64,000 nt of DNA from Cliona cf. orientalis (Eukaryota > Porifera > Demospongiae > Clionaida > Clionaidae), in the NCBI GenBank assembly GCA_963930775.1, contig OZ005699.1, positions 5,477,501 through 5,541,500 of the forward strand. Reading direction: 5' to 3'. The position numbers and the translations under genes were made by a program. Positions 2,326 to 42,848 of this stretch are shown here, one piece after another (the stretch's first letter is position 1; each line of letters opens with the position of its first letter). The notes beneath the pieces were generated by a model. The model ran no database searches. It was not told where the DNA came from and was given only the letters and a program-made list of their open reading frames with translations.

Positions 2326-5300
2326 ATGAAGTCTATCTTCATATCCTCTATTCTGTTAGTTGGGATGATCTGCATCCCAGCTGAGCTCGAGACCAAGAAT
2401 GGTGTGGTCTATATTGTCTCACCAACAGAGTCACTCAGTTCTTGTTCTAGAAACAGCAGCTGTCAACCTGGTCAGCTCTGTCACACAATGGACTACTTAG
2501 CCGAGCACAGTAGTGAGCTCTTTTCACCAGATCATGTCAGTGTAACACTGATATTCATGTGTGGAATCCACAATTATACAAAAGATTTGACTGTACAAAA
2601 TCTTCACTCGTTTACCATGAAAGGAGCAGCAGAATCCAGAGAGAATGTCATCATTGACCATCAATTCCTTGCACAAGTTGATAAATATGATTGTACAATT
2701 ATTCAATTTTTCAATGTCAGTTTTGTGAATGTTACAAACTTGACACTGAGATGTCCGGCAATAAATCTCAAAGCGAGCTACATTACAATAAAGAGCTCTA
2801 ATATCTATGGCTACCTTAGCATAAGAGACACATTATCCTTCTTTAATATCACAGGCAAGGGTTCGCAAGCTTTACTGGACAAATGTACATTCGAAAAAAA
2901 CTGTTTTATTACAAGCAATTATAGTGGCAGGATAGTTGTGAGCAATAGCACATTTCAGTCATACAGGCATCAAATCAATTCAATTGTTGTGGCATTTTCT
3001 AGTGTAGTAACATTAGCAGGAAATGTAAACTTTACTAATAGTGTCACTGGAGTCGATGATATAAATTTATCGTCAGGTACAGCAATATTTCTTCGAACTA
3101 CTCATCCAGAGCTCAAATCTTCACTTAATATCTCAATTGGTGCAACGGTGTATTTTATCAACCTAACGTGTAACAATTATGGCGGAGCAGTGTATGGAGA
3201 GAATGCAGTGATGCACATTGGTGTTAGAACACAGGTAATCTTTACGAACAATACAGGACCTATTTTAAATGGTGGAGCACTTTACCTGATAAATGGGATG
3301 ATTACTCTGGGTGCTAAGTCACATGTTACATTTACATACAACTACGCTAGTTGGGAAGGTGGAGCAGTTTGGATTGGAAATGGAGCATTGATTGTTAACT
3401 CTGAGGCAAGCTTGACATTCAGTCACAATTCTGTAGGTGACGTTGGTGGAGCAATTATACTACTTCATGGAGAAATGATCACTGATACTCGTGCAAGGCT
3501 GAGCTTCTATAACAATTCTGCCAGTCAAGGAGGAGGTGTCTACCTAAACAATTCAACAGTCATCGTGAATACATCCACCTTCTTATTTTACAATAATAGA
3601 GCTAGTAACTATGGAGGAGCCATGTACTTCTTTTATGGATCCATGCATATCATCACAAATAAATCTGCGAAATTCATTATGAATACTGCACAAATTCAAG
3701 GTGGTGCAATTTATATAGAATCTGATACCCACTCCTCTATCACTGTTGGTAACTCTTCCAAATTTCACCTTTTCGACAATTCTGCATTTCAAGGAGGTGC
3801 TATCTATGTTATACCATCATCATTTGCAATTACTGTTGGATATCAGTCGAGTGTTCAATTTATAAACAACACAGCATTAGATGTTGGTGGAGCAGTATAT
3901 GCTGAGATGCAGCCTGCAGCACCATGTTTATTCATGATCACTGACTACTCCGCACAAATTGCATTTTTTGGAAACCATGCAAATCGTGGTATTGGTCATC
4001 ACATATATGGGACTAGTGTAAGAAACACCAAATGTGACCAATTTCATATGGCATTGGCTAATCAACAAGGAAAACCTTACTGCTGGCCTTCCAACATAAC
4101 AGCTAATGGATACATCAACATCTCTTTTGATCCTGGTGCAAACGAGACCCTATCCCCAGTATCCTCTGCCCCTCAGCGTGTGTGTCTCTGTGACTCCAAT
4201 GGCAGACCACAGTGTGCTAATTTCTCTCTAATTTTCACCAGTGTCAGCATTTATCATGGTGAAACTTTCACATTATCTGCTCATATTGTCGGTTATGACT
4301 TTGGAACTACAGTTGGCATAGTCCATGCTGGATTCCTCAATTCGAACCCTAGCTTCTCACGACTAGGACAATCACAATACAATCACCAAGTGAATAGTAG
4401 TAAAACATGTACTGCTTTAGAGTATACTGTATTTACAAGATATAACAGAGAAATTCTATGGTTACAAGTATCTGTTCTGCCAGTATCTTTTTTTGGTGAC
4501 AAAATAGCTACTAGCACTTCACTCTCAGTATACTATTATTACAAGAATATTGCCAGAGTTTCTATAGCTGATTACTTTTCACACGCTAATGCAGGTTGCC
4601 TAAAAGGAGAATTTTTAACAATGCCAGTTTTTGTTAATGTCACTCTGCTTCCAGGCTGTCCTCCAGGATTAAATTTAAACCATGATCTCACTAAATGCAG
4701 TTGCTCTCCTGTCTTGCCTAGTCATTTTGAGTGCTCAATACGAAACAAAACTGGTTTCCTGCAGTGGAACAGCACTGTGTGGGTGAATGCAACTTTCAGT
4801 GACAGTCATGGCACTGGCATTATCTATAACAAATTCTGTCCAGCACTCTACTGCAAGTCAGGCAACAAAACAGTCAACATTGGGGATGATCCCAGCAAGC
4901 AGTGTGCCTCCAACCGAATTGGTATCCTATGTGGTGCCTGTAAGGACAACTTTAGCCTGGCAATTGGATCTTCTCAGTGCATTGAATGTCCCAACAGTCA
5001 TAATGTGGCACTCCTACTTGCCTTTGCTGCTGCTGGTGTCCTCCTTGTGTTCTTTATCCTTGCACTAAACCTCACTGTCACTCAAGGACTCGTTAACAGA
5101 GTCATCTTCTATGCTAACATAGTATGGGCCTATAAAATGATATTCTTCCCATCAGCAATACAAAAGAATCGTCTATTCACGTTTCTTCAAGTTTTTGTTG
5201 CTTGGCTCAACTTGGATTTTGGAATTGAGTGTTGCTTTTTTGTAGGATTAAATGCTTATTGGAAGACATGGTTACAGTTTCTATTCCCATTCTACATCTG

Positions 5301-6225
5301 GGCCATTGCTGGTGTCATTATTATTGCTTGCCGCCACTCCTCTCGCCTTACTAGCCTCATTGGCAGCAGAGCTGTTCCTCTTCTAGCCACACTCTTCCTT
5401 CTATCTTACATGAAGCTCCTTCGTACAGTAATAGATGCCACCTCAGTTGCAGTGATAGCACAGTACCCACAAAACATCTCCTATGCTGTGTGGTACCTTG
5501 ATGGAAATCTACGCTATTGCCAGGATCCTCACATCTACCTTTTCATAGCAGCCATTGCTACTCTTGTATTCCTGTGGCTTCCCTACACACTCTTGCTTCT
5601 ATTCATACAGCTTTTAAGGAGAGTGTCTCATCTAAGGCCATTCAAGTGGATCAACAAGCTTGCCCCTGTCTATGATGCTTACTTCTCTCCTTTGAAGGAC
5701 AAGCACCGATACTGGTTTGGATTAATGCTTCTTGTTCGTGGAATACTTTTGATCCTACTGACAGTAACTTCGGTCGCCAATCCAAAACTAAATATATTCG
5801 TACTATTCTTGTTCATAGCCTTCTTATTTTTCTTCATGTCTATAAAACATGTCTATAAGCGAATGACTGTAAGACTTCTAGAAAATGCTACATTGTTGAA
5901 CTTGATTATCTTGAGTGCTGGAACTTTGTACCAGTGGGAATCTACTGAATCAAGGTTAACCTTGCTCATGGTATCAGTTGGAATTGCTTTTGCTCAATTC
6001 TGTGTTATTGTTGTGTTGAATTTGATCAATCCGTGTCTCAGTTCCAGTCGGAGGTTTAGACAAAATCAAAGCTTTGACATTATTGATGAGCATATTAGTG
6101 AAAACATCACTGATGAGCGAATTGAAGATCCTGAACTTGAATCTCTGATCAACTACGCCCCTCGACCTGTTACTATGACCGCATCCGCTAAATACACGGT
6201 GACTGTTACTAAAGTCAGCACTTAG
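2326..6225 (+). CDS. Secreted beta-helix repeat, multi-pass membrane protein
   Basis: A 1299-residue intronless gene. It starts at the ATG in CACAAAGAATGAAG, followed at once by a hydrophobic signal peptide (residues 1-19). Residues about 230-560 hold at least nine repeats built on GGA(V/I)Y/W with N-rich, hydrophobic turns. This pattern is typical of right-handed parallel beta-helix folds (pectin-lyase or polymorphic-outer-membrane-protein repeats). Many N-x-S/T sites suggest the part is extracellular. A Cys-rich segment (about 780-890, with ILCGACKDNFSL) precedes roughly nine to ten hydrophobic segments (about 893-1235) and a short acidic tail. The architecture matches large uncharacterised protein families in sponge genomes; that is recalled knowledge and was not searched. 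A role as adhesion molecule or receptor is inference. The 3' flank has AATAAA near 6495. Confidence 0.88.
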   Translation: MKSIFISSILLVGMICIPAELETKNGVVYIVSPTESLSSCSRNSSCQPGQLCHTMDYLAEHSSELFSPDHVSVTLIFMCGIHNYTKDLTVQNLHSFTMKGAAESRENVIIDHQFLAQVDKYDCTIIQFFNVSFVNVTNLTLRCPAINLKASYITIKSSNIYGYLSIRDTLSFFNITGKGSQALLDKCTFEKNCFITSNYSGRIVVSNSTFQSYRHQINSIVVAFSSVVTLAGNVNFTNSVTGVDDINLSSGTAIFLRTTHPELKSSLNISIGATVYFINLTCNNYGGAVYGENAVMHIGVRTQVIFTNNTGPILNGGALYLINGMITLGAKSHVTFTYNYASWEGGAVWIGNGALIVNSEASLTFSHNSVGDVGGAIILLHGEMITDTRARLSFYNNSASQGGGVYLNNSTVIVNTSTFLFYNNRASNYGGAMYFFYGSMHIITNKSAKFIMNTAQIQGGAIYIESDTHSSITVGNSSKFHLFDNSAFQGGAIYVIPSSFAITVGYQSSVQFINNTALDVGGAVYAEMQPAAPCLFMITDYSAQIAFFGNHANRGIGHHIYGTSVRNTKCDQFHMALANQQGKPYCWPSNITANGYINISFDPGANETLSPVSSAPQRVCLCDSNGRPQCANFSLIFTSVSIYHGETFTLSAHIVGYDFGTTVGIVHAGFLNSNPSFSRLGQSQYNHQVNSSKTCTALEYTVFTRYNREILWLQVSVLPVSFFGDKIATSTSLSVYYYYKNIARVSIADYFSHANAGCLKGEFLTMPVFVNVTLLPGCPPGLNLNHDLTKCSCSPVLPSHFECSIRNKTGFLQWNSTVWVNATFSDSHGTGIIYNKFCPALYCKSGNKTVNIGDDPSKQCASNRIGILCGACKDNFSLAIGSSQCIECPNSHNVALLLAFAAAGVLLVFFILALNLTVTQGLVNRVIFYANIVWAYKMIFFPSAIQKNRLFTFLQVFVAWLNLDFGIECCFFVGLNAYWKTWLQFLFPFYIWAIAGVIIIACRHSSRLTSLIGSRAVPLLATLFLLSYMKLLRTVIDATSVAVIAQYPQNISYAVWYLDGNLRYCQDPHIYLFIAAIATLVFLWLPYTLLLLFIQLLRRVSHLRPFKWINKLAPVYDAYFSPLKDKHRYWFGLMLLVRGILLILLTVTSVANPKLNIFVLFLFIAFLFFFMSIKHVYKRMTVRLLENATLLNLIILSAGTLYQWESTESRLTLLMVSVGIAFAQFCVIVVLNLINPCLSSSRRFRQNQSFDIIDEHISENITDERIEDPELESLINYAPRPVTMTASAKYTVTVTKVST

Positions 6226-30075: not shown

Positions 30076-30594
30076 TATGAATTGGATCAACCATCATAAA
30101 TCAGACCAAACTGATAAAAATCTGCATGTGCAGCTACCAGCTTGCAACAATACTGTATTACTGATAGTATCAGGTATACCGTACTTAATCTAATACTACG
30201 TATGGCAAAAAAATAATTTCAATTTTGAAAAACGCACGTTTTTCTGGTAAAGGTCGTCATCGCTCCATATATACATGTTATGAGAATTCGTGAAATGCTA
30301 ATTTCTTGCGTTAGATTAGATCATACGTTGTATTCGATTAACTACGGTAATTGCTCGTTACCCTTGCATTGCATCAGTGCTGGCAATGATCGTATTATGA
30401 TTTATGTCATAATTTCAAGTGACAATGTTCTCTTTTGTGCAATTGTCACTATCAACCATTGACTAGCTACTAACAACACGAGAAACATGTAGCTACTATG
30501 ATATGGCGTAAACTTAATCATTAAATATTATTTAGAGTTGTGCGCCATCTTCAAGTCTGAACTATTGGTTCGCAGTGAATCCAAAACGGAGAAC
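30076..30594. other. 5' flank of the NACHT-LRR exon
   Basis: AT-rich with no recognised upstream exon. TATTATTTAG at about 30529-30538 could be a splice acceptor, so further 5' exons outside this stretch cannot be excluded. The sequence ATTTCAATTTTG...GCTCCAT (about 30206-30265) recurs near 54865-54910. Confidence 0.4.
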
Positions 30595-33510
30595 ATGGAT
30601 CAAGAAAATTTAGCTAACTTTGGTGCTGTGGTTACTAGTATCACTAATGCTTTCCATCTAAATTTTAAGAGCTTTTCGGACACTATCCGGGATTCGTATG
30701 TTGCAAGGCAAAGAAATCGAGATCTTCAGTGGCCGCCTTGTTTTGCTGAGAAGCTGGTTCGTTTGGAACTTCATCAAGAGGTTTACAATGTATACTACAA
30801 CAAACAACAAAGAGGAGGACATAACCACTTTTCAATTTCAAACCGAGAGCAACTGGAGTATGATGACATTTTCAAGAAAAAACCAGGAGGAACAATTGTA
30901 AGGAGAGTTTTAGTAGAGGGAGATGCTGGAATTGGTAAAACAACCTTGTGTACATCAATTTCTATCGATTGGGCAGAGTACAAGAGGCTCAAACAGTTTG
31001 ATTTGGTCCTACTTTTACCTCTTCGTGAAACAGCTGTCACTTCTGTGAGCTCAGTTGCTGAACTACTGCAACTGTTTCATCCCAATGAGGTGGTGTGTAA
31101 AGGTGTTGCTGACACTTTTTTACAAGGGGAGCTAGGTAAACATGTTCTCATTATTGCAGATGGTTGGGATGAACTTGAGCCATTCCAGCAAAAGCCAGAA
31201 TCTTTCATTTGTCAGCTCCTCTTCAATGATGCTATACATTCAGCAACGATTATGATTACGTCTAGGCCATCAGCATCAGTTGCTCTGCACAAAAATCCCT
31301 ACATAGATCGTTTCATTGAAATTGCTGGATTTGACATACGAGGAATTGTGCAGTATATCAATTCGGAGTTTGCCAGGGAATGTGAGAAAGCATCTCGAGA
31401 TGGCCTCTTGCAGCAATTAAAGGAAAATGTACTGCTTCGAAGCATTTGCCATGTTCCGATCAATTGTGCAATAGTATGTCACATGTGGCGCAGTGATGAG
31501 TCCCTACCTGTGGATATGACAATGACTGACATTTACACAAAGATAATTTTACACTTCATGCTACGAGCTTTCCATAAATCTTTTCCAGAAAAAGGTTTTG
31601 AAAGTCTCAACAGCTTTGATGCCATTCCAGAAGATATGCAAGATTGCATGTCACGCTTGTGCAAGTTTGCATATGATGCACTTGTCAACGATACATATGT
31701 CTTTACATATGACAGTTTAAAGGATGTTTTCCCTGAGGCAGTTGCTGCAAAGGATCAGCAAGGTGGTCAAACGTTTTTTACATTTGGCTTGATGCAATCT
31801 GCACAGACATTCATCAAAGTTGGAAGAGGTGCATCTTTTCATTTTTTACATCGTACTTTCCAGGAATACATGTCAGCATTCCACGTTGTGAGGCAGTCGG
31901 CCGAGAATCAGACCAAGCTGATGAAGCCATATGCTTACACGTCTCGTATGGCCATATCTATGAGATTTGTGATTGGACTGGGAACCAGTGGTTATCATAT
32001 CAGCTCAAGAATTAGGCCACTCACTAGCAACACTGTGTGTGAAGTGTACGAAATTAATAATCGTGTCAGAGTTGCCTGTGTTGGTTGGACCAACGGTCTG
32101 GTAGTGCATGGTATTCATGAAGCCAAAGAAGGTGCTGTGAAAAACTACCTCCTAAAGTTGCTGTATGGTGATTACTTCACATTTGCATTTCCACACAGTG
32201 CACACGATTGTGCAACTGTAGTCAAAGCTGTTGAACAGTTCCCAAAAGCAATGAAAATTAGCTATCGAGATGAAGCAAAAGTATCATTCAAGTTTGAGCA
32301 TTGTAGTTTGGATGAAGAGCTGCTCACAAACTTTGCAGTTGCCTTATTTAATACAGAAGGAAAACTCCATATTAAGACCCTACTCATTCAAGACAATAAG
32401 TTGTCTGATGGGTCTATTTGTATGCTGATGAATTTAGCAGCACCAGCATTTCAATCATTAAAACAGCTAAGCCTTGCTGCCAACTCACTTGGAGGTGAAT
32501 CAATTACTGCCATATCTGACTATCTGATGAAGAATTCTATAGAGCTTCTAACCTTGTCTTATAACCCACTTGGAGCTGAAGGTGCACTGGCATTACAAAA
32601 TGCTTTTACAGAAGGAACATTTTCCAAGCTCACCAACTTGCAACTAAAGAATTGCTCCTTGAACAATTCTGAAGCTTGTACATCTTTGTTTCAGGTTCTA
32701 CCTGATCATTGTGCTAATCTCAAGCAGCTTGATTTGTCTGAGAATGTTTTTAATAACCCAACTTTAATCGGAGAGTCACTTGCCAAGCTCATTCTGATGC
32801 ACAAGACCCTAAGTGAGCTCTATTTAAATGAGGTGGGGCTTGGTGATGAAGGAGCAACAGCATTGGCTAATTTTTTGAACTCAGTCAACAATCAGGCTTG
32901 TATTGATACCTTATCACTCAAAGAAAATGGAATTCATTCAGAAGGAATTTCCCTATTGGTACAATGTATCACTTCATCCCATCTTATTATACATGATTGT
33001 CTGTACATGGATGGCAACGTTATTGGTTTGAGTGGATGTGTCAGCATTGCTTCTATTATTAGCACTAAGTGTATTTCAGTGTGCAATTGTCAGCTGACAG
33101 TGTGTGCAGAAGACTTGAAACAGAAGCTGAAAGATGAGCTATCCAAGTTTCCTGAAACAAAGATGCGTCAAGAGCTAATTTTGGATAATAATAGCTTTAC
33201 TGGAATAGATATTCACATCCTTATCCAATTGGTTCGAATGTGTCCAGAGTTGAAAAACCTTAGCTGTGCTGGGTGCCACATTGGTTCTAAAGATCTTGGA
33301 GAACTTTTGCGCAATAAAAAGTTTTCATCCTCTCTAGCTGAACTAGAAACATGGTCACTTCAGAATAACGAGCTTGATAATCATGGATGTGGTCTTCTAG
33401 TGACATTTGTGCGCTCACATCTTCCAAAAGTGACTGGTATATTTATCCATGGAAACAACATCAGCAAAAGCGTATTTGAATTATTGGAGCAAGAAGTAGC
33501 CAAACATAGG
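30595..33510 (+). CDS. NLR immune receptor: NACHT-LRR exon
   Basis: A 972-codon exon from the ATG in GAGAACATGGATC to a GTAAGT donor at 33511 (phase 0). An in-frame start further upstream is TTG and is not used here. NACHT ATPase signatures are clear: Walker A GDAGIGKTT (residues 109-117), Walker B region VLIIADGWDEL (184-194) and ITSRPSA (221-227). A helical middle region follows. From about 590 to 960 come leucine-rich repeats of the ribonuclease-inhibitor type (for example LKQLSLAANSLGGE). The first about 75 residues do not look like a known Death or CARD fold. Sponge genomes hold large NLR families that are thought to sense microbes; the ligand is unknown. The most likely continuation is the exon set 43271-54639, which keeps the frame and would give 1285 residues in total. 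Confidence 0.9.
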
Positions 33511-33556
33511 GTAAGTATATTAATAATAATATGATCTATAATAATAATGTCACATC

Positions 33557-35022
33557 TATAAGTAATAGTTATATCATGGGCGCGAGGGATGTATGGCATT
33601 TATTGCACCGAAGCCCGAGGGCCTTGTGCCCGAGGGTTGAGGGCAATAAATGCCATGCATCCTGAGTGCGCGTGATATAACTATTTTATATCCCGTGGGC
33701 ATAGCTACCATGGATACGCATAGAACACTAGAAAATAAAGAAAAATAGGCTCGTCTCTTACTCGAAACGGACACACAAAGCCGCTCTCCGAGTCGAGCCG
33801 CTGAGGCTCTTGAACGTCAGTTGAACTTCCGATGGTCTCGTGACCGAGGGGTGTGGTCAAATTGACACGACTATCGAAGTGTGTCCAAGCATCATCGACT
33901 TTAGAAGCCAAGAAACAAAGCTCGAACTGTTGCTTATCCTAGAAACAAGTCTACGCATTTCCATGCTATTTAAAGTGGCTACGCAGTAAGCGTACCTGGC
34001 AATCGATCGATGACTCCTCGAGCTGGACTCCGCCCTTCGCATCAAACCACTCAGTACTTCGATATCCTGCCGCCATACGCTCCTTTGAAACAGTTTACAG
34101 AGCATTGAGTCGCTGAGAGACTCTGATCCTGGGACCGTTTTGCCTAGAGTACTTCATATTGCACTGTGGTTGCCTGTAGCTACTCATATTGCACTGTGGT
34201 TGCCCAAAGCTACTCATATTGCACTGTGGTTGCCTGTAGCTATTCTATATGGATTTTAATGCACATAGCAACAATGCAGTAACGGGATATAAGTAATAGT
34301 TATATCATGGGCGCGAGGGATGTATGGCATTTATTGCACCGAAGCCCGAGGGCCTTGTGCCCGAGGGTTGAGGGCAATAAATGCCATGCATCCTGAGTGC
34401 GCGTGATATAACTATTTTATATCCCGTGGGCATAGCTACCATGGATACGCATAGAACACTAGAAAATAAAGAAAAATAGGCTCGTCTCTTACTCGAAACG
34501 GACACACAAAGCCGCTCTCCGAGTCGAGCCGCTGAGGCTCTTGAACGTCAGTTGAACTTCCGATGGTCTCGTGACCGAGGGGTGTGGTCAAATTGACACG
34601 ACTATCGAAGTGTGTCCAAGCATCATCGACTTTAGAAGCCAAGAAACAAAGCTCGAACTGTTGCTTATCCTAGAAACAAGTCTACGCATTTCCATGCTAT
34701 TTAAAGTGGCTACGCAGTAAGCGTACCTGGCAATCGATCGATGACTCCTCGAGCTGGACTCCGCCCTTCGCATCAAACCACTCAGTACTTCGATATCCTG
34801 CCGCCATACGCTCCTTTGAAACAGTTTACAGAGCATTGAGTCGCTGAGAGACTCTGATCCTGGGACCGTTTTGCCTAGAGTACTTCATATTGCACTGTGG
34901 TTGCCTGTAGCTACTCATATTGCACTGTGGTTGCCCAAAGCTACTCATATTGCACTGTGGTTGCCTGTAGCTATTCTATATGGATTTTAATGCACATAGC
35001 AACAATGCAGTAACGGGATATA
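33557..35022. repeat. Two head-to-tail copies of a 731-bp unit
   Basis: 33557-34287 and 34288-35018 appear identical at every position checked, and three open frames translate to the same residues in both. Each unit has a hairpin of about 130 bp (AATAGTTATATCA...TGATATAACTATT, with an inverted GGCATTTATTGC inside), a unique middle, and three copies of a 29-30 bp unit containing CATATTGCACTGTGGTTGCC. The units join at TATA, which also stands at both outer edges. Confidence 0.92.
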
Positions 35023-35505
35023 ATGGGATATACCGTATATTTCTGCTAAAAATAATATTACAAGTATAAAAACAATTGAATAAAATTGAAGGATGAAGTA
35101 GGGATGGCAGGATCAAAAAGTACACAAACAAGATTTGTAAGGGATAATCGCATCTACTATACAGTACAGCTCACGTGAAAGGTGAACGTCCCGCGCGTGT
35201 TTCCTGCGGGGTGCACGCAGGCATAGCCCACGAAACATCCGTGGAAGTGCTGTTACTCCCGCGTGCAACACGCACACGCTAGTATGCCTACACACGCGCG
35301 TGCAATACTATGCACGCACGTTCACTATACGCGTGTGCGTGTATAATAATACAGTCGATTTTTCTCGTGTTTGAACATGCGTACGCGTGCGCGTATGCGT
35401 AGCGTGATCGCGTGCGCGCGTTAATTATACGCACGCGTGGGATACAATGTACGTTCGCGAGTTCTTCCCTTATGCGCATGCTCCATTTCAAATCTTTGGT
35501 ACGCA

Positions 35506-36486
35506 ATGTCTGCAGAACCAGGCCGCAAAGCACCGTACTCCATTGATCTGTGTCATCGCATGATCTGGCAGATAATCGGAATGAGTCTTACATATCGAAA
35601 AGTGGCACAAAATTTAAACGTAGCAGTTGGCACTGTGCACAATGTACTTCGCCGTTTCCAAGCAACTGGCGAGTTGGAGCCAACTAAACCTGACAGAAGC
35701 AATACCAGAAAGCTGTCAAACAATCAAGAATTGCTACTTGTTGGTTTATTCCTTGACAATCCAGGTCTATATCTAGGAAAAGTATGCTGTGAAGTAGCAG
35801 ATATTACTGGCACACAAATTTCTCCCCCTACTGTATGCCGCATACTTCGTAGACATGGGTTTTCACGAAAAAAGATCCAGCAAGTAGCTCTACAGAGATC
35901 TGCAATTGCCAGAGCCAAGTTTATGGCTGACATGCAATTTTTTCACAATGATCAAATAGTATGGTTAGACGAGACGGGTTGTGATAGGCGAGATCAAATT
36001 CGCAGGTATGGATACAGCCTGAGAGGTGAGCGTCCTGTATACCATCGCCTGTTACATAGAGGTAACAGAATATCCGCAATCACTGCCATGTCTACTGATG
36101 GCATTGTAGCACTAGAGCTATTTCAAGGGACTCTGAATGGTGATCGTTATTTTAATTTCTTACGAGGAACACTTATACCTGAAATGCAACCATTTGACGG
36201 ATCCTCTCCCCAATCTGTGTTGGTTCTGGACAATTGCAGTGTCCATCATGTCAGTGGTGCTACCGACTTGCTTAGAGAAGCAGGAATCCTGGTTGTATTC
36301 CTTCCGCCGTACAGCCCTGACCTAAACCCAGCAGAGGAGCTATTTAGTGCAGTGAAGTACTACTTAAAGGAACGTGATGAGATTTTACAGGCAATGCGAG
36401 ATCCCACCCCCTTAATTAAATCTGCATTTGACAACATTTCTCCAGAGCAGTGCAAAGGATGGATCAATCACAGTGGAATTTATTGA
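35506..36486 (+). CDS. IS630/Tc1-superfamily transposase, DD34E
   Basis: 326 residues from the ATG in ACGCAATGTCTGC; an upstream in-frame GTG is not a plausible start. An N-terminal paired-like helix-turn-helix region (about 1-110, with MIWQIIGMSLTYRKVAQNL) precedes a DDE domain. First Asp in VWLDETGCD, second in VLDNCSVHH, and Glu in PPYSPDLNPAEE exactly 34 residues after the second Asp. All three catalytic residues are present and the frame is intact, so the protein could be active. YGYSLRGERP after the first Asp is the IS630-type signature. A recently moving element is suggested, but expression is not shown. Confidence 0.9.
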   Translation: MSAEPGRKAPYSIDLCHRMIWQIIGMSLTYRKVAQNLNVAVGTVHNVLRRFQATGELEPTKPDRSNTRKLSNNQELLLVGLFLDNPGLYLGKVCCEVADITGTQISPPTVCRILRRHGFSRKKIQQVALQRSAIARAKFMADMQFFHNDQIVWLDETGCDRRDQIRRYGYSLRGERPVYHRLLHRGNRISAITAMSTDGIVALELFQGTLNGDRYFNFLRGTLIPEMQPFDGSSPQSVLVLDNCSVHHVSGATDLLREAGILVVFLPPYSPDLNPAEELFSAVKYYLKERDEILQAMRDPTPLIKSAFDNISPEQCKGWINHSGIY

Positions 36487-36618
36487 AATAATCACAACTG
36501 AAATCAGGCATAATAATTATTAGAGATGGATAATACTCGATGAATTAATTATTAGTGTGTGCACATGTCCTGGCCTTTTGTAATAATAGTATTATTCGTG
36601 TTCACCGATCTTAATTCT

Positions 36619-37111
36619 TTACAGGTTTTTAATGTCAGTAAGGATACTCTCCCTTAGCTCCTTGTACTCTGTATCATCGATGATACCATCTGTGTGAAGT
36701 TTCTTCCACTTCTCAAGCTGGTCTATCAGCTGTGTGCGCATGGATACCTTGGTGCTTGGTGATGAACTGGATACCACGCGGCGTATCTTAGTGGTTACTT
36801 GGTTGTCAGCTTCAGTGGTTGGTCTCTTGCGGCCACGCCAGAAGGGTTTGTCTGGCGGTTCATCGAGAGATGAATGCTTCCCCATATTGATTAGGTATGC
36901 CCACACTCGACTCACACTATTGTAGATATTAAACGCACACATACCCTACATAGGAGAATGATGATCATACCTGGCCTTGGGAAGAACGAGCTGCTGACTC
37001 ATCACCGGTCACACTAACTGACACATCCTTGCCTGAATCACTACCAGTTCCCTTTCCCAAAGCGATGTGACTCGCTCCTGCATATGAATTGTATGCTGTC
37101 CAGCACTCCAT
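36619..37111 (-). CDS. Small basic protein with SHOCT-like C-terminus (two exons)
   Basis: Exon 1 is 37111-36971 (ATG in the MECWTAYNSYAG frame, donor GTATGA) and exon 2 is 36945-36619 (acceptor TATGTAG, phase 0). Together they give 155 residues. Alternatively translation may begin at MGKHSSLDEP inside exon 2, for 88 residues. The middle is basic and Ser-rich (RGRKRP, TTKIRRVVSSSSPS). The end, LEKWKKLHTDGIIDDTEYKE, resembles the SHOCT oligomerisation motif (Leu-rich helix, then G-I-I-x-x-x-E-Y/F). Function in the transposon is unknown. The 26-bp intron is very short, which weakens the two-exon model. Confidence 0.5.
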
Positions 37112-37580
37112 GCCAGGAGGTATGGCTGAGAAATACAATCGTGGCAACAGCGAACAATGTCAATCTTCCAAACTAGGCCAATGAGCGCCAAACCAAGCCC
37201 ATAAGGCGCGTATTAAATACGCACGCATGCGCGTACGCGCACCAAGGACGAGCGAAACGCATGTTCAAACGCGAGGGAAATCGACTGTACTTTACTGCGG
37301 ATGTGCGTGCGTGCAAACAGGGAAATCCCCGAAGCCACTTGAATGCGCTACTGGGTTCCATGCAGTATAATTAAATTCCCTGAAGATAGCGCGTGCTTAA
37401 TAGTAAACAGAGGCAATACAAGCGCACATCCAATTGCCCTCTTGTGGGTCAATGTACTATTAGTGCATGTAATAGTAAAATTTAATACATACCAGAAATA
37501 CTGCAGTGTAATATCTATGATATTATGTGTGTACAATGTGGATATAATGTGTATTATAGTCAGGTGCTTATCAGTCAGTG

Positions 37581-39520
37581 TTAGGCCTTTTTATCTTTTT
37601 CTTGTCTGTGTAGCTCCCTCCCATATTCATCAATTGCATGGCGACAATCTCTTAAGGCTTTTTCCTTCTTTTCTTGGTGCTCCAGGGGATAGGAGAGGAA
37701 GACTGTCTCCATAATCTTTGCCATCCTCACTGGATCTAATTGCTCCTTCCCTAGCTTTCCATTGACGTTGCTGGTGTATAGTTCCTCTCGGGTGTACGTC
37801 TCCACAGCTATTTTCTTCACAAAATTTCTTCTTGAACAGCTGGATCTCCTAAGTTCACTCAGCCTAGCTGAAGGTGGCAGTCCTGTACATACAGGTGTGC
37901 TGGACACAGTGTTGGGGGTAGAGCTGGCTGGTGGATCCTGAATGGTGATAGCCTCGGCTGTGGCACAGGCTGAAGATGGTTCTTGATCACTGGCTGATTG
38001 AACCTGGTTGTTGGTTGATGATGGACAGCCTGTATCAGTTTCTAGCTCATGATCACAATCATGGGTGGCAGTCTGGCTGAATAGTGGTCTAGGCTGAATG
38101 ATAGGCTGAGAACTGTGTGGAGTCCTTGGCGGTACTGGTGTCAAACGCCTAGACTTCTGCAAGGTGGTGAACAATATACATATATTATACATGTACATGT
38201 AAATCTACATGTATATACATGTGTATACACGTACATACCATTGAAAAGAGCTGGTTTTCCATAGCCTTACACCTTTGTTTGATATCCTGGACATCCAAAG
38301 TTGTCACCCCCATTTCACTACTCATTAATTCCACTGCCTCTAGTACTTTGTCCAACTTTTGAAGCACTAGATCACACTTACAGCTGGAGCCTATATGTAG
38401 TTCACTTGGATCTGTCTGGGTGGCTACTTCTATTGAGTTGTCATCTACGTAGATGGTGATCACGGGATTTGTGCTTCTCAGTGGTACATCTTCATCGCTT
38501 TCCGAGCCACCTTCCTCTGAATCCAGACTTTCATTTTCAGAGTCATGATCTGCCTCCTGAATGGTCTGCAATTGAAAATGTGGAATACATTTACATTTAC
38601 ATGTGCATGCACATAAACATACAGTAATCAAAGAACCATGTTGATCTACATATACAGTATATCTTACCTGATTCAGATACCAAGTCTTATCTTGTGGAGG
38701 TGGAGGGTTGATTGTCTGAGGATTAGGAACCAACATTTCATTTGCATCTCTACAGGCAGAGTGTGATTCCTACATGTATACATGTGGAAAAAGAATGCAA
38801 ATTGAGTACATGCATATGTACATTGTACATGAACATTTACATGCATTTTAGACTGAACAATAATATTACATGTACCATTACCATGAGATTGGTGGCCGGG
38901 GGGTTACTGTCAGCATCGGCTGGAGGACTGGGAACAGTGGTAGCCGGGGGGTTACTGTCAGCATCGGCTGGGGGACTGGGACCAGTGGTAGCCGGGGGGT
39001 TACTGTCAGCATCGGCTGGGGGACTGGGATCAGTGGTAGCAGGGGGGTTACTTCCAGATGAGTGATTGGCCTCAGTAGTAGTGAGTGGTTTATCATTTTG
39101 AGGTGGAGAGGCCACTTCAAGAACAAAAGTGTTCTTGGGTTGCTTTGATTTTTGCTTCTTCTTGGGGATGGCAGACTTTTTGATTGTGGAAAGCTTCTTT
39201 TTCTTGAGGGGAGGTTGTGCAGATGCATTAGCAGCTCTCTTTCTAGAGTTTGTGTTGATTGTGTTTGTATTCTCATCACTGCCGTACATGTACTTCCTTT
39301 GTTCTTCTCTCATTGATGTACCATCCCCCATAGCCAGAACTGTAGCTTTGTATATCTTATGATCTGACCATCTCACTGAGCAAGTAGCTGAAACATCAAG
39401 TATTGCTACTGCAGGTGAAGTCACTCTTTTGGCTGGAATGACACTGGTCTTTTCATCTTCATGGAACTCCACCAAAAGGTGAGTGGCATCCTTGGTCTCG
39501 ATCTGTGATCTGATAGACAT
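37581..39520 (-). CDS. BEN-domain protein, four exons, transposon cargo
   Basis: Exons 39520-38882, 38769-38668, 38565-38239 and 38156-37581, all joined in phase 0 with GTAATG, GTAAGA and GTATGT donors, give 547 residues. Residues 1-75 look like a small beta-rich N-terminal domain (CSVRWSDHKIYKATVLAMG). A Lys-rich nuclear-localisation stretch (LKKKKLSTIKKSAIPKKKQK) follows, then a Pro/Ala repeat and an acidic segment. A predicted coiled coil lies in exon 3 (VLQKLDKVLEAVELM). The C-terminal BEN domain (about 440-525) includes EELYTSNVNGKLGKEQLDP. BEN domains bind DNA and chromatin partners. The gene shares the transposon with two transposases, so a role in targeting, silencing escape or regulation is possible but is inference. 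Confidence 0.8.
38895..39055. repeat. 48-bp minisatellite inside the BEN gene
   Basis: Just over three units encoding NPPATTxPSPPADADS within exon 1. The units are nearly identical, so the length probably varies between alleles. Confidence 0.85.
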
Positions 39521-39846
39521 CCTGAGGTGCTTCAGGTCTTAGAAATGTAGCTGTGTGCTCCAAGATCACTACTTTTATGGCTGCCACCCCAGCTCAATAG
39601 CCATCAAAAGTTGAAAGGTCAGATCAAATACTTCTTTTATCAATAAACATCAAAGCATTACAAGGTTGACAAGTACAAAAGTGGAGTATAAGGTGTGAAA
39701 ACTGAAATTTTAAAGATAGGCTACATGTACATGTACATACATGTATACATGTAAGAACATTACGCTACATAATTATTCTATACCACTTAAAATCCTGAGG
39801 GCCACATGTAAGAACATTATACATGTACATGTACTACATAATTTTC

Positions 39847-40863
39847 TTAAAATCCTGAGGGCCCCCCATTTACTTCTATGACTTTAGGGATGACTTTACG
39901 TAGGTATCCAATAAACTTTCTACATACTTCAGGAGTTAGAGTTTTCCAGTACCTACGAATACCAGCCTTCAACTCAGTGAGATTCTTTGGCTTCACCTGA
40001 TCTCGCAAATATAGCTTCATAGCACCCCATACGTTTTCAATTGGATTCAAATCCGGACTTGAAGCAGGTGTCTTCCACCAGTTGATGTCTTTTTCTTCGT
40101 AGTATCTCTGGGCATAACGACTGGTGTGCTCTGGGTCATTGTCTTGTTGAAATCTGTGGCCATCAGGATACACATCCTCCAAGAATGGAACTAGTCCAGC
40201 ATCAAGAATGTCAGTGTATCTAGTTGCATTCATTATGCCAGAGAACATGACTACCTTTGTGGCACCTCTTGCCGATATCCCACCCCAAACGTGAATCTTT
40301 GGGGGATGCTTAGGACGTGGTTTGAGCCGAGCAGCTTCACCTATTCGATGGTAGGTCATCAGGCGATGACTCTCCAATTGAACAGTGCATTCATCAGTCC
40401 ACACAACATTAGCAAACCTTAGATCGCCTGCTCTTATCTGCTCCTGACACCACTCAACTCTCTTCTCCTTGTTTCTCTCTGCTATCATGGCACAGTATCT
40501 CGTACGCTTTGCCACCCAGCCTAGCTCCCTTCTCACCCACTTTATCGTACTGATACTGACACTTACTTCAGGATACTGCTCTTGGAACATGTTGTACAGC
40601 TGCGAACTAGTTAGTTCATCATTTTCTGCCATTGCATCATCAATAAAACGTAAGTGCTCATCTCCGAGCTTCCGTGGCCGCCTCGTCTTTCTCTCGTCCG
40701 CTACAGATCCCGTTCTTTTGTACTTTCCAATCAGCACACAGAGGCTCTTCTTAGAAACTTCAATCCCCTCTGCTAGCAAGTGCGCTCGGATGTCTTTTAA
40801 TTTGAAGCTTCGTCGCGATAGCTCAACAACCGTAGTTCGAGTGCTGTAACTTAAACGCCCCAT
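39847..40863 (-). CDS. Tc1-type transposase, DD34E
   Basis: 338 residues from the ATG of MGRLSYSTRT; the open frame continues upstream but has no earlier ATG. The N-terminal part (about 1-105) holds paired-type helix-turn-helix regions separated by a basic KTRRPRKLGD linker. The DDE catalytic core has Asp in VVWTDECTVQL, Asp in FQQDNDPEHTS and Glu in SPDLNPIENVW with 34 residues between the last two. IHVWGGISARGATKV is the usual Tc1 motif. Length and motifs are full and uninterrupted. It lacks recognisable TIRs of its own right beside it, so it is treated as cargo of the 6.46-kb element, although an old nested Tc1 copy that lost its ends is possible. Confidence 0.9.
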   Translation of the reverse strand: MGRLSYSTRTTVVELSRRSFKLKDIRAHLLAEGIEVSKKSLCVLIGKYKRTGSVADERKTRRPRKLGDEHLRFIDDAMAENDELTSSQLYNMFQEQYPEVSVSISTIKWVRRELGWVAKRTRYCAMIAERNKEKRVEWCQEQIRAGDLRFANVVWTDECTVQLESHRLMTYHRIGEAARLKPRPKHPPKIHVWGGISARGATKVVMFSGIMNATRYTDILDAGLVPFLEDVYPDGHRFQQDNDPEHTSRYAQRYYEEKDINWWKTPASSPDLNPIENVWGAMKLYLRDQVKPKNLTELKAGIRRYWKTLTPEVCRKFIGYLRKVIPKVIEVNGGPSGF

Positions 40864-40958
40864 CAATGAATCGTTGCTATTAGTATTCTTGGATCTCCTG
40901 CTGATGTTCGTAGGCTTGTACAAAGGTGCTTGCCGATTGCTCCGAGGTAGTCGCTGCG

Positions 40959-41335
40959 CAGAGGAGGTAGGACACGCTTGACCTTTGGCTAATAGTTCAC
41001 TAATTAAATCGCTGGTAGAGGCTTTCGTGAAGATTTTTAGAGGATATCGTTGCGATTTTCGAACTCAGCGCTATTGATTTAGTGGGGGAGCCCCTCTTAG
41101 TTAGCACTACAGAGCAATTTTTAGGTCTTTGGAATGTCAATTAGCCGCTTTGATTAACATTCCAAGGACCTAAAAATTGCTCTACAGTGCTAACAAAGAG
41201 GGGCTTCCCCACTAAATCAATAGCGCTGAGTTCGAAAATCACAATGATATTCTCTAAAAACCTTCACAAAAGTCTATACCAGCGATTTAATTAGTGAACT
41301 ATTAGCCAAAGGTCAAGCGTGTCCTACCTCCTCTG
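40959..41335. mobile_element. 377-bp foldback MITE with 9-bp TSD
   Basis: Almost the whole length is an inverted repeat: CAGAGGAGGTAGGACACGCT at the left is mirrored at the right, with a 30-40 bp loop near 41140. GTCGCTGCG flanks it at 40950-40958 and 41336-41344. It lies just upstream of the Tc1-type transposase. The TSD length fits Mutator-like elements; hAT (8 bp) is the alternative. Confidence 0.88.
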
Positions 41336-42848
41336 GTCGCTGCGTTCACGAGTAGCTGGTGAGAAAATTCGGCAAGCTAGCTAGCCGCACCCACAAGAAT
41401 TAATTTATCCGCGCGGGCCGCATACGCACGCGCACGCGCACACGCGCGCATACACGTACACGTACACGTACACGTGCGAACACGTACACGCGCACGCGCG
41501 CGCTCAGCCCACGTCCTGCATAGTCCCCGCGTGGAAGCGAAATCATTCACGTGTGTAGGTTTCGGGATTCCCGCGGGAAACACGCACGGGACGTTTACCT
41601 TTCACGTGAGCTGTACTGTACATCCCTACGCTTGCTTTACTTATTATTACGCACCTATAAATGTCAACATACTTGTCGAGTGAAGTAATACTATGTGGAA
41701 GACATTCAGCTAGGTTATTACTAGTTGTCACGATGGTTGGATGGTCAGTTTGATTCAATCACATGCATTATTACTGGGTTTTTTTGCATCCCTCAACTTG
41801 AAAGCAAGCGTAGGGATGTATAGTAGATGTGATTATCCCTTACAAATCTTGTTTGTGTACTTTTTGATCCTGCCATCCCTACTTCATCCTTCAATTTTAT
41901 TCAATTATTTTTATACTTGTTCCTGTTCTTTTTTTTTTTATTGCACACAGTGCACTAATTTTATCAGTGCCATCTTACATGAGTTGCTCATAACTTCTGT
42001 CCAGTGTACTATTAAGTGGACGATGGGAGGTGCCGAAGTTTCGTAGCCACGCCTCTCGTTAACTTGCATTCATATGCCTATCAGTATGTGATGAAACAGG
42101 CTGATAAAGAAGGGTGTTTTAGGTGGCCCAAGTAGTGATGAGACCCTTCCGTTTAGCCTGGGAGAAAACCAAGTTCTAAATTTTATTGTTAGCAGCAGCT
42201 ACTCAGCATAATAATTTCTATGATCTGTACGTTACCGCTCCTCGAGCCTTGCGCCTTCTTATCCATGATCGATCCAGCACGCTGCTGCACGCGCTAGCGA
42301 GTAGCTAGCTCGCCTCGGCCTAGCGCCTCGGCTCGAGCGCTCGAGCCTGGGGCGGGGGGGGGGGGGGGGGGCGCTGTCACATGACTTCACCATGGTAACA
42401 CACTCCGAGCATGCGCATTATATCACAAAATGGCGTATCAGACACACCCAATTATCAATGCGCCGTACACACCCACTATTACGTAACTGTCGAGATAATG
42501 CCAAACTTACGTGCAACTGCACTACGCGCTACAAGATGGAGTGGATTTATACTCAAACTAAGATGAGCGATTAAGGCAGTCTTGAGCTAGCTCTGATAAT
42601 GAAAAAGAAAGAAAGAAAGAAAGATTGAGAAATGGCCTTTTTTTAACATCTGGTTCTGGCATATACAATTGATTTGATGAATGATCTTGGTCTTTTTAGA
42701 TAGATAATTTGCTGGAGATTCTGATTTTCACACTTAGAAATTTCACAAAATTACCTATTTTGAGATATTTGGATATTTGCAATGTATTACATATATGGCA
42801 TATCCGGGCCATCCCTACTTATAGAGTCTACCGACTCTATGATAGATC

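Follow-up and report, generated by a model that had tools for sequence, protein, structure and literature searches.

We analyzed a cluster of transposon genes in the sponge Cliona cf. orientalis, within a 64,000-nucleotide stretch of DNA that we refer to as the window (GenBank assembly GCA_963930775.1, contig OZ005699.1, positions 5,477,501 to 5,541,500 of the forward strand; coordinates below count from its first letter). An original prediction, made from the sequence alone, held that one set of inverted repeats at 35162-41618 encloses a single transposon with four genes: two DD34E transposases, a BEN-domain gene and a SHOCT-like gene. We find instead two independent transposons of the IS630-Tc1-mariner superfamily, each with two genes and one nested in the other, and we hold this reading with high confidence. 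The outer element (35162-41618; CAGTACAG ends, TA duplication) carries a Tc1-type DD34E transposase and a four-exon BEN-domain gene. The inner element (35352..37287) carries an IS630-like transposase and a second gene, open reading frame 2 (ORF2). Both pairings recur elsewhere in the genome.

An IS630-like transposon nested in a Tc1-type transposon

The inner element measures 1936 bp end to end, lies on the plus strand within the outer element, and has ends of its own. Its terminal inverted repeats (left, 35352..35382, plus strand, starting CAGTCGA; right, 37257..37287, minus strand) are bordered by TA target duplications at 35350..35351 and 37288..37289; including the TA, the repeats at 35350-35382 and 37257-37289 form a 33-nt set that matches at 91%. 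The outer repeats proposed originally are real, but they are not the only set. Copies with the same ends as the inner element stand alone at two loci on other contigs, L016 and L017, at 93-96% identity to it. Over 2524 aligned columns, 3 substitutions and 2 gaps separate these two copies, which are also on different contigs from one another, and it is therefore probable that the inner-element family transposed recently. Two relatives with the outer ends lack the inner block. In L004, window position 35336 is joined directly to 37284, and in L003, 35336 is followed by five bases and then by 37286. Given these relatives, the inner block is a later insertion.

We considered whether all four genes could form one composite element, bounded by the outer ends and moving as a whole. 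The outer ends are still well matched, so that joint movement of everything between them is conceivable in principle, and the outer element has a precise empty site (described below), although such a site is equally expected if the inner element inserted later. Against these points stand the inner unit's own ends and TA duplication, its stand-alone copies and the two outer-end relatives without it. Furthermore, our search returned five more places with outer ends, two of which were covered only with 1.5-kb flanks, and no other four-gene copy was seen among them. Because the inner unit stands alone and outer relatives exist without it, we reject the four-gene unit and regard a composite element as very improbable. 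The original prediction had itself named such an outcome as its refutation.

The arrival of the outer element can be read from its target site. The outer terminal inverted repeats (left, 35162..35210, plus strand, starting CAGTACAG; right, 41570..41618, minus strand) span 51 nt with the TA included (35160-35210 and 41570-41620), are 94% complementary, and match between the ends at 46 of 51 positions. They lie within a palindromic target repeat whose left arm (35060..35163) is 98% complementary to its right arm (41817..41920). Further copies of this repeat occur in L028, L034 and L037, and positions 552-917 of L037 match 41614-41999 of the window. L037 keeps the empty site as an uninterrupted CTACTATACATCCC, and the window has the element between two TAs at that position; comparison of L037 with both window junctions places the target duplication at 35160..35161 and 41619..41620. 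Since L037 is uninterrupted at the junction, the outer element came by one clean TA insertion.

Besides the window copy, we followed four elements with CAGTACAG ends to both ends, and all have a TA on each side. In L075 (4345 bp), A36 (3879 bp) and B20 (4467 bp), the BEN gene and the Tc1-type transposase lie together between such TA-flanked ends. The gene order in A36 and B20 is that of the window; in L075 the two genes are convergent. Tc1/mariner elements are usually short and carry a single transposase gene, and the copies found here depart from this pattern in that a second gene lies inside the ends of L075, A36, B20, L016 and L017.

Gene content of the two elements

Both transposases have open frames and intact DDE triads with 34 residues between the second D and the E, as originally claimed. 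The Tc1-type transposase (39847..40860, minus strand; 337 amino acids) matches Pfam DDE_3 with an E-value of 2.4e-19, has the triad D156, D240 and E275, and matches Sleeping Beauty (E = 3.8e-26). The IS630-like transposase (35506..36486, plus strand; 326 amino acids) matches DDE_3 at E = 3.8e-29 and has the triad D155, D242 and E277. With this triad and spacing, a TA duplication and terminal inverted repeats, each element has the characteristics of the superfamily. Tc1 and Sleeping Beauty share these features as well as N-terminal helix-turn-helix matches. The elements described here differ from them in having two genes, and in a size of 2.5 kb for L016 and L017 and 3.9-4.5 kb for A36, L075 and B20.

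The BEN gene of the outer element can be read as four coding exons on the minus strand, joined across GT-AG introns into an open frame of 547 amino acids. The first exon (38882..39520) encodes an N-terminal segment that is matched in several other copies; it is followed by exons at 38668..38769 and 38239..38565 and by a last exon (37581..38156) that contains the BEN domain. On visual inspection, A36 has a counterpart of the last intron. The BEN domain (PF10523) scores 30.2 and 29.1 bits, above the curated Pfam cut-off of 23.2, and its best sequence matches among solved structures are to BEND3 (E = 3.1e-4). When folded alone, the N-terminal segment gave a mean predicted local distance difference test (pLDDT) score of 57.5, and this model was not used. 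A search of 5.8 billion proteins, in which the best 7996 word-sharing candidates were scored, returned one homologue of the BEN protein, with 49% identity over half its length. Pattern scans of viral contigs gave no confirmed Tc1-type transposase.

The second gene of the inner element was originally described as a spliced, SHOCT-like cargo gene. A C-terminal match to SHOCT (PF09851) is present, but at 22.9 and 22.4 bits it falls below the curated cut-off of 27, and the gene in the window is a remnant of ORF2 (36619..36942, minus strand, convergent with the transposase) consisting of the C-terminal part with the SHOCT-like stretch. The full-length ORF2 of L016 is a single 238-codon frame, encoded on the opposite strand from the transposase, and L017 retains a full ORF2 as well. 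The window copy matches from about residue 142, with roughly the first 141 codons deleted; about 590 bp are gone from the window's inner element, between two short similar stretches. We therefore reject a spliced SHOCT gene, since full-length relatives can be read without an intron and the window copy has lost part of the gene. Of the two proposed cargo genes, one, the BEN gene, has a predicted spliced structure. ORF2 perhaps consists of a PB1-like head and a helical-hairpin tail. Pattern scans of prokaryotic genomes and viral contigs gave no confirmed ORF2.

A foldback of 377 bp (40959..41335) lies upstream of the Tc1-type transposase and is bordered by 9-bp direct repeats, GTCGCTGCG, at 40950-40958 and 41336-41344. 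It is missing from L003, as are about 70 bp to its right, and it is probably a third insertion.

Each transposase is often paired with a second gene across the genome

To ask how often the pairings recur, we searched the genome (217 Mb in 149 contigs) with each gene. Because only the best candidates were scored, all counts from these searches are lower bounds. Merging 45 BEN-exon matches and 25 matches to the Pfam BEN model gave 56 BEN places, and 131 Tc1-type matches merged into 96 places. A Tc1-type place lies within 7 kb of 41 of the 56 BEN places, whereas 500 random placements gave 0.5 such places on average and never more than 5 (these used a guessed size for contig C18). From the Tc1-type side, a BEN place was found at 25 of 34 places with at least 57% identity and at 29 of 51 that are longer than 800 bp.

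These numbers bear on the possibility that the BEN genes are ordinary host genes beside which Tc1 elements merely inserted. BEN domains are found in host transcription factors (PMC10206803, PMC10602864), and for 15 of the 56 BEN places the 7 kb on either side contain no Tc1-type place. Nevertheless, BEN and transposase share one TA-flanked pair of ends in L075, A36, B20 and the window, and the proximity of 41 of 56 BEN places to a Tc1-type place far exceeds the 0.5 expected. The shared ends contradict the host-gene explanation for these four elements. We find it scarcely credible overall and favor a BEN gene that belongs to the transposon, less firmly for the 15 unpaired places. A transposase with a likely DNA-binding partner as a recurring set, the weaker form of the original idea, thus survives in the Tc1-type and BEN pair.

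In the case of the inner element, 123 IS630-like matches were scored out of 610 candidates, and 150 of 153 ORF2 matches were used. ORF2 lies within 1.5 kb of 91 of the 123 IS630-like matches and is convergent with the transposase in all 91. Among matches at 47% identity or more, 62 of 63 have ORF2 beside them. The same holds for every one of the 30 loci L015-L044, the window included.

Some arrangements found in these searches are of interest in their own right. Positions 58-2592 of L030 hold an IS630-ORF2 element that is more distantly related and has ends of its own; its transposase match is 258 bp from a Tc1-type match, so that two units again lie side by side. At 2366-8655 of L076, a BEN-Tc1 unit directly adjoins an IS630-ORF2 pair; we searched for the right end of this BEN-Tc1 unit and did not find it. 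Contig C6 has ten clustered BEN places between 0.16 and 0.94 Mb, in what looks like a multiplied segment, and six of the ten are accompanied, in the same order, by a partial Tc1-type match at a distance of 4.3-6.4 kb. Lastly, some Tc1-type genes (for example, C10:4322679-4323737) match in two pieces with no BEN place detected, possibly reflecting an intron and another partner.

Partners have diverged together

If each second gene is a lasting companion of its transposase, the two should diverge in step. We find that the pairwise identities of the partners covary, with r = 0.93 across 11 Tc1/BEN loci and r = 0.96 across 29 IS630/ORF2 loci. The first comparison used the loci with both proteins, without double-counting L051 and L052 (the same as L075 and L076), and skipped residues at stops or gaps; the second used 29 of 30 loci, leaving out L021, a near-copy of L020. 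After collapsing copies closer than 85%, the correlation is r = 0.76 for Tc1/BEN (7 lineages, p = 0.0036) and r = 0.73 for IS630/ORF2 (15 lineages, p = 0.0002). Such correlated divergences are expected of lasting partners rather than of repeated chance capture.

Several observations pull the other way. L003, a 1233-bp element with both ends traced, has no BEN gene, and all that it retains of the Tc1-type gene region is a 92-bp match close to the start; we read it as a deletion derivative. A BEN place was detected at only 41 of the 96 Tc1-type places; at the others, the BEN partner may not be needed, may have been lost or may have diverged beyond recognition. The arrangement of the two genes also varies, with 18 transposase-to-BEN, 19 convergent and 4 BEN-to-transposase cases. 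For the other family, 32 of 123 IS630-like matches lack a detected ORF2, 31 of these being below 47% identity, and a crude script saw flanking inverted repeats at 14 of 30 IS630-like loci, having overlooked a clear pair in L030. In addition, 7 of 123 IS630-like matches, including the one in the window, have a Tc1-type place no more than 8 kb away (random mean 1.1, 95th percentile 3, with the same guessed size for contig C18), and hence the two families cluster somewhat.

Motif counts at the ends of the elements gave a mixed picture. We counted five motifs in 13 end segments (10 outer-type and 3 inner-type) and compared them with shuffles. CACGCG, the core of the BEND3 site, exceeds shuffles in 4 of the 10 outer-type segments (left and right ends of the window element and of L075) and in 1 of the 3 inner-type segments (the window's inner left end). 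It is not above shuffles in A36, B20, L003 or either end of L016. The full CCCACGCG occurs once each in the left end of L075, the right end of L003 and the window's inner left end. Given that CACGCG is also in excess at an inner-type end, the motif does not single out BEN.

Part of this evidence would suit a different explanation, in which BEN and ORF2 are passengers, that is captured genes or selfish cargo with no part in transposition, acting for instance on host silencing alone. The 55 of 96 Tc1-type places without a BEN place within 7 kb and the variable gene arrangement fit passengers. The shared divergence of the partners, the convergence of ORF2 in 91 of 91 pairs and the retention of full ORF2 in the near-identical L016 and L017 argue against them, but cargo that benefits the element in another way is compatible with all three. 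We consider passengers unlikely, though a serious contender. As for a role of BEN and ORF2 as accessory proteins in transposition, we regard this proposal as evenly balanced.

Based on these data, we propose the following course of events. The outer element, with its Tc1-type transposase and BEN protein, inserted at a TA in the palindromic repeat. Later, the inner element entered at a TA in the stretch that separates the outer left end from the BEN gene's 3' end, and the foldback probably went in close to where the Tc1-type gene begins. Judging from its family, each transposase most likely mobilizes its own element by cut-and-paste, and each second protein is most likely a helper used by its own element: BEN would bind DNA or chromatin at the element or its target, and ORF2 would bridge proteins.

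Elsewhere in the window, a long open frame at 30538-33534 encodes a NACHT domain (Pfam E = 1.3e-18), a 1299-codon open frame at 2326-6225 has Chlam_PMP repeat matches, and a small foldback at 33564-34416 is present in two copies close together.

Relation to known multi-gene transposons

Multi-gene elements of this superfamily are already known from ciliates. The IS630-Tc1-mariner transposons of Paramecium and the Tec and TBE elements combine a DDE transposase with further open reading frames, and all 13 Paramecium elements have an ORF2 of no known function (PMC5405496, PMC7325037). The likeness to our elements, compared by description, lies in having a transposase and an ORF2, a name that does not imply kinship; the further gene named there is a tyrosine recombinase, unlike the BEN or SHOCT-like genes found here. 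A second parallel comes from PIF/Harbinger and ISL2EU (PHIS) elements, most of which encode a transposase together with a second DNA-binding protein (PMC4482050). These belong to another transposase superfamily, and the partner given there is a Myb/SANT or YqaJ protein instead of BEN. Host proteins such as BEND3 have the BEN domain in common with our gene product, but the BEN gene described here is inside a transposon and beside a transposase. We found no pairing of BEN with Tc1/mariner in open-licence PMC papers (Repbase was outside this search), and none of SHOCT with a transposase or mariner among the matches listed from such papers.

Host-factor independence is the reason that Tc1/mariner elements cross species and serve as gene-delivery tools. 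These elements are held to transpose without host factors (PMC5704228). We tentatively suggest, short of an even call, that two Tc1/mariner-type lineages are now two-component, one with BEN as a DNA-binding partner and the other with a PB1-like/helical-hairpin adaptor, that the pairs have been co-inherited through many rounds of transposition, and that some host BEN genes may derive from transposon copies. The retention of a second gene by two families, despite deep divergence, would point to an autonomy of Tc1/mariner elements that can be given up or modulated, and BEN would offer a testable chromatin-binding partner. Our findings further suggest that many of the genome's BEN-domain genes belong to transposons, a point of consequence for the annotation of host chromatin proteins.
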